Positions 5,057 through 10,245 of a DNA stretch of 64,000 nt are shown here, in pieces. The stretch comes from Desulfovibrionaceae bacterium (GTDB lineage Bacteria > Desulfobacterota > Desulfovibrionia > Desulfovibrionales > Desulfovibrionaceae). The stretch covers positions 1 to 64,000 of the forward strand of contig WRIL01000002.1 in NCBI GenBank assembly GCA_009782775.1, written 5' to 3'. Position numbers and translations under genes: made by a program. The notes beneath the pieces were generated by a model. That model saw only the letters and a program-made list of their open reading frames with translations. It was not told the origin of the DNA and made no database searches. The stretch's first letter is position 1, and every line of letters starts with the position of its first letter.

Positions 5057-6586
5057 TTAGGTTCTCTCCCGGTCCAGGGCGCGGCAGTTGATGGCCTCGG
5101 CCAAGTGCCGTACCTCGAGCCGTTCCTCTTCGGCTAGGTCGGCGATGGTGCGGGCCAGACGCAGGATGCGGGTATGGGCACGGGCGGAGAGTCCGAGCTT
5201 TTGCATGGCCTGCCCCAGAAATTTATGGCTTGGTTCATCCAGGGCGCAATGTTTTTCCAGGAGGTTTCCGTACAGGTCCGCGTTGCTGCGGCAGACGGAT
5301 CCGGCGTAGCGTAGCCGTTGCAGTTCCCTAGCCCGGACCACCCGGACGCGCATCTGGGCGGAAGAAGCGCCGGGCGCGCGAGCTCGCAATTCCGCGTAAG
5401 GAACCGCCGGAACTTCGATGTGCAGGTCCAGGCGGTCCAGAAGGGGGCCGGAGAGCCTAGCGCGGTAGCGTAGCACTTCCTTGGGGGAACAGGCGCAACG
5501 GCGGGAAGGATCGCCATAATAACCGCAGGGGCACGGATTCATGGCCGCCACCAGCATGATCCGGGCCGGGTAGCTGACCGCGGCCGCAGCCCTGGACAGG
5601 GTGATCTTTCCGTCTTCCAGGGGTTGGCGCAGGGCCTCCAGGGTATGCTTGGAGAATTCCGGCAGCTCATCCAGAAAGAGCACTCCCCGGTGGGCTAGGG
5701 AAATTTCTCCCGGCTTGGGATTGGCCGCGCCGCCCACTAGGCCGGCGTAGGAAACGGTATGGTGTGGGGCGCGGAAAGGCTGGCGGCGGATCAGCCCTTC
5801 GCCCGCCTTAAGCTGCCCGGCTACACTGTAAATGCGGGTTACTTCTAGGGCTTCGTCAAAGTCCAGGGGAGGCAGGATGCCGGGCAGACGTTGGGCCAGC
5901 ATGGTCTTGCCGCTGCCCGGAGGCCCAAGGAGCAGGAGATTATGCCCGCCGGCGGCGGCCAGTTCCACGGCCCGTTTGGCATACTCCTGTCCCTTGATCT
6001 CGGCGAAGTCAAAAAGACATTCCCCACTGAAGTTTTCCCGGTTTAATTCCGCCCGCACGGGTTCAAGGGGGAGCCGTCCGGACAGAAAGGCCACGGCTTC
6101 CGAAAGATTGCGCGTCCCGTACACTGCCACCCCCGAGATCACCGCAGCTTCCTTGGCGTTATCCGCGGGCGTCAGCAAACCGCGCGCCTGGCGCTGGGCC
6201 GCCAGAGCGGCCATCGGCAAAACGCCGGGAACCCAGCGCAGTTCTCCGGTGAGGGAGAGTTCTCCCAGGCAGAAAAAGCCCTCCAGGGCCTCTGGAGGCA
6301 GGGTGCCGGTGGCGGCCAGCAATCCCAGGGCCAAGGGCAGATCATAGGCCGAGCCGGCCTTGCGGCAATCAGCCGGGGCTAGGTTGACGGTCAGCCGCCC
6401 GCCGGGGAGGGTGAAGCCGCAGTTGCGCAAGGCGGTGAAGACTCGGCCGCCGGCTTCCCGCACTGCGCCTTCGGCCAGACCCACTAGGCTGAAGCTGGGC
6501 AGCCCGCCGCGGGTGAAATCCGCTTCCAGGCTGATCTCGGTGGCTTCCACTCCCTCCAGGGCCGCGCAGGAAACTTTGGCTAACAT
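5057..6586 (-). CDS. comM: YifB/ComM family Mg-chelatase-like AAA ATPase
   Basis: GPPGSGKTMLAQRLPGILPPL, FLDELPEF, MNPCPCGYYGD. Confidence 0.95.
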   Translation of the reverse strand: MLAKVSCAALEGVEATEISLEADFTRGGLPSFSLVGLAEGAVREAGGRVFTALRNCGFTLPGGRLTVNLAPADCRKAGSAYDLPLALGLLAATGTLPPEALEGFFCLGELSLTGELRWVPGVLPMAALAAQRQARGLLTPADNAKEAAVISGVAVYGTRNLSEAVAFLSGRLPLEPVRAELNRENFSGECLFDFAEIKGQEYAKRAVELAAAGGHNLLLLGPPGSGKTMLAQRLPGILPPLDFDEALEVTRIYSVAGQLKAGEGLIRRQPFRAPHHTVSYAGLVGGAANPKPGEISLAHRGVLFLDELPEFSKHTLEALRQPLEDGKITLSRAAAAVSYPARIMLVAAMNPCPCGYYGDPSRRCACSPKEVLRYRARLSGPLLDRLDLHIEVPAVPYAELRARAPGASSAQMRVRVVRARELQRLRYAGSVCRSNADLYGNLLEKHCALDEPSHKFLGQAMQKLGLSARAHTRILRLARTIADLAEEERLEVRHLAEAINCRALDRERT

Positions 6587-6592
6587 AACACC

Positions 6593-9500
6593 TCAACCCT
6601 GGTCCTCATCCCTGGCGGTGCCGGGGAAGCAGAGGTCGTACATGGTCCGGATGTATTCACTGTTACGGTTCAGATAAAAAGACAGGGCCTTGGAAAAATG
6701 CTCGCCCACTAGGCCGTCCACGAACATCTGGCTGACCTCGTGCGTCCTGGAAAGGACCAGTTGAGACCTAGCCAGGATCAGGCGTTCTTCTCCGCTCATG
6801 TCTGCCACCAGGCGTTTCAGGGCTGGCTGTGCCTGGGGCAGATAATTCCAGAAATACATCAAATCCAAGGCGTTGGCGATGGAGGCCACCCGCAGGGGCA
6901 GGTTATTTTCCCTAGTCAATTCCAGCAGGTTTTCCGGGTGGACCAGGAGGCGCAGGATATGCTTTTCCGGGTAGGCCAGTTCAAGGCGGGTGTAGGTTTC
7001 TAGGAGCTGGCGGATCTTGTTGCCGTAATCCATAAAGCGCAAGCGCAGGTTATTTTGCCGGTCGGCCGTCCCTTCAATGATTCCGCCCACCGTGTCCGAG
7101 GCGGTCTTGGAGATGATGGCCGCGCCCAGTTGCAGGTAGACTTCCGGATTCAGAGCACCTAGGTGGTGCATGAGCATGAGCAGGAGATGGTGATAGAAGA
7201 TGGAGCAGGGGATGGCCAGGATGCTGCGGAACAAGTTGCCGACGGCCGCGGCTCGAGGCAGGCCGCGGTAGATGTTGTGCGAGGCGATATACAGACCGTT
7301 GCCCAGGGACATGGAGGCAAAAACCAGGGCCGGAGAGTTTTGCAGAGTGAGTCCCAGGTTTTTTTCCAGGAGCAGGTAACGCATGCCCAGTTCCAGCAGG
7401 GGGACGGAGAAACCCGTGTACATCAGCGAGTCGCAGATCCGCGATACATTGATGTAGTCGCTCCAGCGTAGGAGGGAACGGCGGAGCACCCCGCCGCCAA
7501 GCAGGGCTTGGGCGATATTGCGCAGGGCGGTAATCGTGAACCATATCAAGGCGCCGAACCAGGCCAGAAACCACCAGGGCTGGGTATATAGGAAGGTCAG
7601 CATGGCGGCGGTCAGCCCCAGCAGCACTTTCAAGCCGTTCAGGACGTGGTTATTCAGGTGGATTAAAGATAGCCGCGTCCCTTCGCCGTTCGCGCGGGGG
7701 GCGAAGCCGTTGTCCTGGGTATTGGCGATGCCGCCGATGGTGATGATGTTGCCCTGGCGGTTATAGGTGGCCATTTCGTTGTAAATCCAGCTCATTTTTC
7801 CGCGCCGCCACGGGCGCGTCCATCCGGCCAAGGCGCGGATAGGGGAGGAATTGAAGACGGAGTTCGCGGCTGGCGGTGGATAAGTGATTGTAGGGGTCAT
7901 TTCCAGATGGATGGGCAGAGGCATTATGCCGTCGTACCCTTTCATCCGGCGCCGAGCGCGGAGGGGCAGGGTTTCAGGCGCCAGAAGTCCCATGCCGTGC
8001 CGCATGCTGGCGTTGCTGGTGGAATCCGTGCCGATGCGCGAACCAAGGGGACGGCGCAGGTAGTGTTTTTGCAGGGCCGGGAGGTTTTGCAGGATTTCTC
8101 TCAGCTTGGCGCAGCCTTCCGGATCGCCGTTTTCCCGGAGTTTATCCTTGAGCATGGCCCGGACGATATGTTTCAGGGGGAGCGGGCTGGGGTTGTTCAA
8201 GGCCTGTTGGAGCAGGCTGATCTCTTCCAGTTGCGGGGTGCGGCCGCTCTGCCATTCCTTGAGGTTGAAATTTTCTAGGTGGCTTATGCGGCCCTGGCAA
8301 TCCCAAAGCAGTTCCAGCACCTCCTCGGGGGAGAGATCCGCCGGACTCAGCCGGATGCTGGACTTGTTCCGCAGCTCCAGGAGTTTTTCGGTCAGAAGCT
8401 GCGGCGGCAAAAAGGCCAGTTCCGGCAGATCGTTCGCGCCGGCGGAAGCTTCCGGCGGATGTTCATGCACTTCTTTCAGCCAGGTGTTCAAAAGCACTTC
8501 CGGAGTCAGGCCGTTCAAGAAGCGCATTCGTTCCCGCAGAGGCTCCGGATCGGGGTCCCCGTCTCCTGGCGGATCCGCCAATTTCTTTTCCAGGGCCAGG
8601 TAACGGGTCTTGAGCGCGGGGAGCATCTGGCGGTGAGCCATTTCGGCCAGGTGCAGGGTGGAGGCTTGCCCAGCGCCTACAAATTCCAGGAATTTACCCT
8701 GCTCCAGGGGGGCCAGCTCTAGGTCCAGCCTGCGCCGGATTTCCGGCAGGGCGACGGCATTCCAGTATTCCAGGAGGCGTATGACCTGCGAGGTATTACA
8801 GGCGCTGATCCCGCGGCCTTCTTCCATGAGCAGCCGGATGGGCTTTTCCTGAAGGAATTCCAGGGCATCATCCTTGTCCATCATCCCGGCCGGCTCCCAA
8901 ATAAGGCTTATCTGCCTGTTTTTAAAAGGCGCGCGGTATTCCAGGCCGATGCGGATGCGGATGCCCAGGATGGCCGCGGCGCTGAACAGTTCGTGGGCCA
9001 TTTCCGGACTGATGTAGTTGTAGTAGATGATGATCAGGTGGCGCAGCCCCTTGATCCAGGCATCCATTAGCAGGTGGGTGGGATTTTTGCGGCCCTTGGT
9101 GTTGGCGTCATGCACATGATGGTCCATGGAGGCCTGGGTCAATGTTTCCGGCATCTCCAGCAGCCGGTACTGCCGTAGAAATTGCCGGACGATGCGCGGA
9201 TTGCCCGTAGCCGCCCGGCGGAAATCGTGGACCAGCATCATCCGCCGCCGGGGGTTTTCCCTGGAGAGCACGATCTCCTTCATCATCTGGATAAGCACCC
9301 TGGCCGTATTGTAGCGAAAGCCGGTCTGGGCGGAATGCCAGACCTCGTCCAGCAGGCTGCGCAGGGCCATGAGTCGGTATTCGGCCCGCTTGGCTTCGAT
9401 ATTGGCCAGGAGATTGATTACCGCAAGGGCCATGCGTTCGGCGTGGGAGCCCGCCAATTCCATGATGCCGTTGGGATGGAGCGAGGCTCCGAAAAGGGTC

Positions 9501-9622
9501 CGGTTCCGCGGGCCTTCCCCCCAGGCTTGGTCAACGATGGCCAGCAGATCGTGATCTCTCTGGTTGAAAAAAAAGAAAGGGTAGTCTTTTTTCATTGCGT
9601 AAATGAATTTGAGATGGCTCAC
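6593..9622 (-). CDS. Large uncharacterised protein: N-terminal PHP-like region, C-terminal multi-helix membrane region
   Basis: 1009-aa ORF; DHHVHDANTKG...THLLMDAWIKGLRHLIIIYYNYISPEMAHELFSAAAILGIRIRIGLEYRA resembles the PHP-domain pattern; C-terminal half has hydrophobic segments (VLLGLTAAMLTFLYTQPWWFLAWFGALIWFTITAL). Confidence 0.8.
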   Translation of the reverse strand: MSHLKFIYAMKKDYPFFFFNQRDHDLLAIVDQAWGEGPRNRTLFGASLHPNGIMELAGSHAERMALAVINLLANIEAKRAEYRLMALRSLLDEVWHSAQTGFRYNTARVLIQMMKEIVLSRENPRRRMMLVHDFRRAATGNPRIVRQFLRQYRLLEMPETLTQASMDHHVHDANTKGRKNPTHLLMDAWIKGLRHLIIIYYNYISPEMAHELFSAAAILGIRIRIGLEYRAPFKNRQISLIWEPAGMMDKDDALEFLQEKPIRLLMEEGRGISACNTSQVIRLLEYWNAVALPEIRRRLDLELAPLEQGKFLEFVGAGQASTLHLAEMAHRQMLPALKTRYLALEKKLADPPGDGDPDPEPLRERMRFLNGLTPEVLLNTWLKEVHEHPPEASAGANDLPELAFLPPQLLTEKLLELRNKSSIRLSPADLSPEEVLELLWDCQGRISHLENFNLKEWQSGRTPQLEEISLLQQALNNPSPLPLKHIVRAMLKDKLRENGDPEGCAKLREILQNLPALQKHYLRRPLGSRIGTDSTSNASMRHGMGLLAPETLPLRARRRMKGYDGIMPLPIHLEMTPTITYPPPAANSVFNSSPIRALAGWTRPWRRGKMSWIYNEMATYNRQGNIITIGGIANTQDNGFAPRANGEGTRLSLIHLNNHVLNGLKVLLGLTAAMLTFLYTQPWWFLAWFGALIWFTITALRNIAQALLGGGVLRRSLLRWSDYINVSRICDSLMYTGFSVPLLELGMRYLLLEKNLGLTLQNSPALVFASMSLGNGLYIASHNIYRGLPRAAAVGNLFRSILAIPCSIFYHHLLLMLMHHLGALNPEVYLQLGAAIISKTASDTVGGIIEGTADRQNNLRLRFMDYGNKIRQLLETYTRLELAYPEKHILRLLVHPENLLELTRENNLPLRVASIANALDLMYFWNYLPQAQPALKRLVADMSGEERLILARSQLVLSRTHEVSQMFVDGLVGEHFSKALSFYLNRNSEYIRTMYDLCFPGTARDEDQG

Positions 9623-9756: not shown

Positions 9757-10245
9757 TTGAGCAGCAAAGCGCGGGAGAGAGAGCTTGTGTTTGCCGTGAG
9801 TATGGCCGCGCCACCCCTGGAAGGCCGGGTTGAGTCTCAAGGGAACAGCCTTTGGGAGCGCTGGAGTTCCGCCGGTCTGCGCATCAGGCGCTTCCGCCAT
9901 GGGCGGGACGGGTTCCTGGCCGTCTGGCTGGAGCCCTGGGTGGAGGAGGAGATCGCGGAGATCTGGAACGCCTCCCCCGGTGACGGTTTTTACTGCCATA
10001 CTCTGGCCTCCCGGCTGTGCTGGACAGCGCTTAGGACCTGCGCCCCGGGCGCGGAGGGTTGCGCCCCCTTCCCGGAGTTCCGCCCTCCCCTGCGCCGCGT
10101 CCTGGAGGAAGAAGGCCTGCTTGCGGCAGGTGAGAGAGTTTTGCGCCGGCGCTATGCGTTGCTTACCTTTTATCCTTTTCGGCGGGGCTGCGCGCCTTGC
10201 GCCTTGCGTTCGGAATGCCCGCAAGGGCAAAGGACAAGTATATGA
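9757..10245 (+). CDS. Hypothetical protein with C-terminal Cys cluster (GCAPCALRSEC)
   Basis: Open frame ending in an ATGA overlap with the next gene; start uncertain (TTG 9757, or about 9786/9802). Same-strand operon context supports it over the antisense ORF. Confidence 0.6.
   Translation: MSSKARERELVFAVSMAAPPLEGRVESQGNSLWERWSSAGLRIRRFRHGRDGFLAVWLEPWVEEEIAEIWNASPGDGFYCHTLASRLCWTALRTCAPGAEGCAPFPEFRPPLRRVLEEEGLLAAGERVLRRRYALLTFYPFRRGCAPCALRSECPQGQRTSI

Follow-up and report, generated by a model that had tools for sequence, protein, structure and literature searches.

What does a bacterium do with a phosphoesterase-type PHP barrel in which part of the metal site has been replaced and which is built into a large membrane protein? 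This question is raised by an intact open reading frame in the stretch of 64,000 nucleotides from a Desulfovibrionaceae contig analyzed here (the window; Table 1). From its letters alone the product had been described as a membrane protein with a partly degenerate PHP-like domain, and the sequence quoted in that preliminary description, MDHHVHDANTKG...YYNYISPEMAHELFSAAAILGIRIRIGLEYRA, corresponds to residues ~166-230 and lies where it had been placed. Because conservation among homologues begins near residue 17, the ATG at residue 10 is suggested as the real start instead of the GTG. No Pfam or NCBIfam family covers the protein, a PDB sequence search with its whole length gave no credible match, the family matches no PADLOC defence model and was not found in plasmid records, and no description of it was met in the openly available literature on PHP domains fused to membrane parts. 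The ComM/Mg-chelatase-like ATPase gene on its downstream side is probably unrelated to it. On the other side lies a plus-strand open reading frame of 162 aa (9757-10245) without a Pfam match, in which a cysteine cluster near the C-terminal end, CAPCALRSECP, was noticed by eye and could be an iron-sulfur or zinc site. An ordinary TrpH-type gene (G000:C7) is present in the same genome.

Table 1. Features of the 1009-aa protein gene and its downstream neighbour, with positions in the window.
Feature	Position	Strand	Remark
Whole open reading frame	6593..9622	-	1009 aa, GTG start; likelier start ATG 9593-9595 (residue 10), by homology
Residues 17-155, N-terminal all-helical domain	9158..9574	-	family-conserved LHPxGI, NTARVL and EMPE motifs
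PHP motif I, D167-x-H169-x-H171-D172	9107..9124	-	metal positions 1 and 2, kept in 133/133 sequences
Residues 174-192, NTKGRKxPTHLxMDAWIKG	9047..9103	-	R178, K179, D187 and K191 invariant
Residues 200-203, YYNY, at the canonical TDH(N/D) site	9014..9025	-	metal position 4
Residues 226-228, GxE	8939..8947	-	metal position 5, Glu kept
Residues 250-420, long helical insertion in barrel	8363..8875	-	at the TrpH-type insertion place
Residues 318-324, GQxSxxH	8651..8671	-	aligned to GRPHIA in PHP proteins of the TrpH type
Residues 450-455, ExxNxK	8258..8275	-	E450 and N453 both invariant; corresponds in strand order to the TrpH 'GIEVY' strand
Residues 531-535, GTDST, motif IV-like (canonical SDxH)	8018..8032	-	register taken solely from the order of strands
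Residues 565-640, short beta-rich linker domain	7703..7930	-	lower model confidence
Residues 658-883, membrane domain, about six helices	6974..7651	-	polar residues that both subfamilies conserve
Residues 885-1000, C-terminal helical domain	6623..6970	-	predicted model
ComM/Mg-chelatase-like ATPase gene, downstream, 6 bases off	5057..6586	-	not a conserved neighbour

It is well supported that residues ~165-560 form a divergent PHP barrel homologous to PHP phosphoesterases of the TrpH/YciV type. An AlphaFold2 model built from 19 window and locus sequences (pLDDT 80, pTM 0.73) places strands at residues 165-171, 195-201, 222-233, 236-243, 422-426, 448-453 and 527-531, and the top five PDB matches of this model in Foldseek are all PHP proteins with a probability of 1.00: 3o0f and 3e0f (E 3-5e-5), then RNase AM (9etk), 2yb1 and 7ug9, with TMt values of 0.57-0.59 for the top four. 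Profile comparison led to the same fold. Against a profile of eight TrpH-type proteins taken from related genomes, the family profile scored 83% in hhalign, and 94.1% (E 1.3e-7, residues ~166-330) when the distant subfamily had been added, with 0.1-0.2% for reversed controls and at most 0.5% for the remaining parts of the protein. The order of strands and motifs also agrees with that of PHP proteins. Furthermore, residues 175-250 of a distant homologue (L119) resemble the first ~75 positions of the models for phosphoribosyl 1,2-cyclic phosphate diphosphodiesterase (NF041661, E 2.8e-4) and 3',5'-nucleoside bisphosphate phosphatase (NF041577, E 3.7e-4), although this homologue is not a member of either family because its scores of ~20 bits (best 19.7, for NF041577) are far below the curated cut-offs of 500 and 400, respectively. 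Pfam PF02811 (PHP) matches none of the 19 members at E up to 5, and no hhalign signal against PHP proteins comes from the barrel's C-terminal half; the motif register in that half rests on the strand order of the model because it cannot be aligned by sequence. A viral structure library gave no significant match, the PHP-like matches there being PHP domains of phage polymerases. Thus, the PHP-like domain of the preliminary description is borne out by Foldseek and by profiles with clean reversed controls, and the Foldseek, profile, Pfam, NCBIfam and PDB searches revealed no unrelated family matching the whole protein. The extent of the domain, however, was underestimated: it is not confined to residues 150-260 but reaches ~550-560, and the long helical middle that had been placed after it is predicted as an insertion within the barrel (~250-420).

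The barrel shares its fold, strand order, HxH and GxE with TrpH/YciV (RNase AM) and Cv1693-type proteins (PDB 3o0f/3e0f, 9etk, 2yb1), and apparently also the position of the helical insertion with its GRPH or GQxSxxH motif. It differs from them in that five of nine metal ligands are replaced, in that the insertion is clearly longer, and in that the barrel sits within a membrane protein of ~1000 residues. TrpH-type proteins are recognized by a helical insertion with a GRPH motif before the fifth strand; GQxSxxH of the present family can be aligned to this motif, in an insertion that is longer.

How much of the metal site is left? The nine ligands of PHP proteins are H H D/H H E H C/H D/N H (PMC3666897, Table 1). 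Two subfamilies were aligned, a main one (n=125) and a distant one (n=8), and the main subfamily keeps positions 1, 2, 5 and 8 (H169, H171, E228 and D533) while replacing 3, 4, 6, 7 and 9. At position 3, Lys176 takes the place of Asp/His in 118/125 main sequences (Glu in 7/8 distant ones), and at position 4, Asn202 replaces His in 115/125 (His in 9; Asp in the distant subfamily). E228 at position 5 is found in 120/125 main and 8/8 distant sequences, with Ser in four. Position 6 is variable in the main subfamily, whereas its His is conserved in the distant one, by which the register is also supported. Position 7 is mostly Asn426 in the main subfamily. D533 at position 8 occurs in 121/125, the other four having Gly or Arg, and is replaced by Ala in the distant subfamily; at position 9 Thr535 replaces the final His in 116/125. 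The observation in the preliminary description that HxH and a late Glu are retained while the DHN-like site reads YYNY therefore holds for the family (HxH in 133/133, E228 in 128/133, YYN with N202 in 115/125), and a chance motif is excluded by the identity of H169, H171, D172, R178, K179, D187 and K191 in 125/125 main and 8/8 distant sequences. The full HHED set is present in 117/125 main sequences, and the distant subfamily keeps positions 1, 2 and 5 together with His at 6; HxH and Glu are the common core because both subfamilies retain them. In the structure of YcdX, positions 1, 2, 5 and 8 presumably hold one of its three metals jointly. In Mtb DnaE1, the equivalent of this Glu coordinates two zincs, one of which is also bound by the equivalent of the Asp (PMC5636811). 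The PHP domain of E. coli DNA polymerase III alpha likewise has five of nine ligands replaced and binds no metal (PMC3666897), but it loses the His of position 1 and keeps 2, 3, 6 and 8, and unlike it the present family has no polymerase and is membrane-attached. Because the main subfamily does not show the nine-ligand set of catalytic PHP proteins, sequence comparison does not support its membership among catalytic PHP phosphoesterases. The reduced site may work like that of such an enzyme.

The other half of the protein carries a membrane domain. A separate model of the C-terminal part built from 58 sequences (pLDDT 91.7, pTM 0.84) predicts a polar-cored domain at residues 658-883, whose hydrophobic helices account for the several hydrophobic segments noticed previously; the support for the proposed membrane tether comes from these predicted helices. 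Conserved in both subfamilies are R701, N702, S732, N775, Y778, H782, N783, R786, N796, R799, K839, S842, D843 and E850. Neither Foldseek (best E 0.52, probability 0.10) nor a sequence search with this domain found a match in the PDB; as modelled, it thus appears unmatched among solved structures, 'new fold' meaning new with respect to the PDB and the viral structure library. In full-length matches a single reading frame encodes this domain together with the PHP part, and a search of 357 genomes with the domain revealed no copy standing alone. The Lipocone superfamily, which has a His(H2)-Glu(H3)-Asp(H4) pattern in a four-helix core (PMC12419801), likewise has conserved polar residues, His among them, in its membrane helices. 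In a comparison by residue pattern, however, the helix following that of H782 has no conserved Glu and D843/E850 come one helix on, and no lipocone structure is among the PDB matches of the domain, so that residue pattern and structure matches do not support Lipocone membership. A GNL...P motif in the membrane part had pointed to SpecificRecomb (PF10136), which was rejected because the reversed hhalign control scored alike (1.7% forward, 1.9% reversed).

A homologue, mostly full length and of ~36-50% identity, is present in 41/59 related genomes. A pattern scan of species genomes (one per species) revealed 509 family loci, the best 80 of which belong mostly to Desulfovibrionaceae and other Desulfobacterota but also include Parasutterella and the candidate divisions KSB3 and CSSED10-310. 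In evenly drawn samples, the family was found in 32/297 genomes of the phylum and in about half (132/241) of those of one of its classes. Other Pseudomonadota sampled gave 1/150 and 1/349, the sole positive being the Parasutterella genome used as sampling centre. Parasutterella (Burkholderiales, gut; L049, L078) has full-length copies, which are absent from 149 other sampled genomes of the order; these look transferred because the family was not found in the other Pseudomonadota sampled, another gut bacterium being the probable source. Taxonomic groups are intermixed in the family tree, in which many taxon labels are only provisional. Several genomes (G014, G022, G032, G134, G167, G223, G248 and G611) have two full-length copies at distant sites, and therefore the paralogues may differ in role. 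The branch leading to the window copy is long (1.4 changes per column against a median of 0.29) and no copy was seen in 5/6 other genomes of its genus, which suggests either that it evolves fast or that the family is being lost in the genus. One fragmented gene with an internal stop (G564:C1:924952-929167) is apparently a pseudogene.

Do the neighbouring genes indicate a function? In a survey of 140 loci from 44 lineages (62% identity clusters), no neighbour was general. Glycerophosphate genes are adjacent in 4/44 lineages, one of them in another phylum, as a codirectional glycerophosphodiesterase (GDPD) gene spaced -1 to 68 bp from the family gene or as adjoining ugpBAE(C) transporter genes, with UgpB/A/E/C scoring above NCBIfam and the GDPDs above Pfam cut-offs. 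In the largest of these lineages, ugpBAE(C) genes converge on the family gene at a distance of 24-33 bp in one branch, and in a second branch a codirectional GDPD gene follows it immediately. In a KSB3 genome (L083:1369-9093), ugpB, ugpA, ugpE and ugpC immediately precede the family gene with the same orientation, as in an operon. GDPD is also directly upstream in two lineages of the distant subfamily; in one locus (L119:8416-12057) no base separates the GDPD stop codon from the family gene's start codon, suggesting translational coupling, and in L206, from another family, a codirectional GDPD gene likewise lies just upstream. Nevertheless, a general metabolic coupling of the family to GDPD was rejected because GDPD presence does not correlate with the family among 59 relatives (15/41 carriers, 7/18 non-carriers; Fisher p = 1.0). 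In the window organism's own genome, which is ~85% complete, no GDPD gene was seen. The significance of glycerophosphate neighbours was judged post hoc, and two more frequent classes recur, response-regulator/kinase genes (12/44 lineages) and acyl-CoA-synthetase-like genes (6/44), which were not accepted as partners because their arrangements are mixed and they belong to very large superfamilies. The link to glycerophosphate genes is thus suggestive only.

The family probably has a role somewhere in phosphate or membrane-lipid chemistry. We lean, tentatively, towards a phosphoester enzyme that depends on metal, is anchored in the membrane and has a glycerophospho-type head group as its target: H169, H171, E228 and D533 would coordinate a single metal ion in place of the classical three, invariant R178, K179 and K191 would bind phosphate, the membrane domain would hold a lipid or lipid-derived substrate, and the PHP barrel, on the cytoplasmic side, would cleave or transfer the phosphoester of the head group. 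The replacement of five of nine ligands argues against this, as do the facts that D533 and E228 are not universal and that most lineages have no glycerophosphate neighbour. A more specific version, with the membrane domain as a novel intramembrane fold in which a phospholipid is bound and from which its head group passes to the single-metal barrel, is rather unlikely. Nearly as likely as the enzyme is a pseudoenzyme sensor, whose non-catalytic barrel would bind a phosphorylated ligand through a remodelled but conserved pocket while the membrane domain executes or transmits the response. It would explain why the catalytic ligand set is broken and yet D172, R178, K179, D187 and K191 nearby are invariant, and the Lys that stands where Asp is a ligand is in line with the positive side chains that substitute for metal in variant PHP domains (PMC3666897). 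A pure binding pocket, however, need not retain the invariant HxH and the nearly invariant E228 of both subfamilies, and neither a signalling domain nor a regulator with a consistent link came to light, the kinase and regulator neighbours being heterogeneous.

Somewhat less likely than these two is the reading that the membrane domain is the working part, a transporter or intramembrane lipid enzyme, and that the barrel has the structural role of a scaffold, like the PHP domain of E. coli Pol III. Structural roles are known for variant PHP domains (PMC3666897) and the membrane domain has a dense conserved polar set of its own, kept in both subfamilies, but the strictest conservation in the N-terminal half is that of the PHP pocket itself and no solved transporter or membrane-enzyme fold matches the membrane domain. 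That the PHP resemblance arose by chance, the N-terminal domain being an unrelated barrel, is very improbable: the silence of PF02811 and of the second half of the barrel would fit, but four agreeing lines with controls (model strands, Foldseek, hhalign and NCBIfam PHP models) strongly disfavour it.

The architecture, a PHP-fold variant joined to a membrane domain, is new, whereas the fold itself is known, and it widens the range of architectures known to contain PHP domains. A family of membrane proteins of ~1000 residues that is spread over hundreds of sulfate reducers and related bacteria, and for which no Pfam or NCBIfam family or assigned function was found, is thus brought to light. An anonymous hypothetical protein becomes a testable biochemical question, now that one half is seen as a PHP barrel whose metal site is altered in a precise way and the other half as unmatched among solved structures. 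If the hand-over of a phospholipid head group to the barrel were true, the protein would be an enzyme of membrane-lipid remodelling that has not been described before and is widespread among sulfate reducers.
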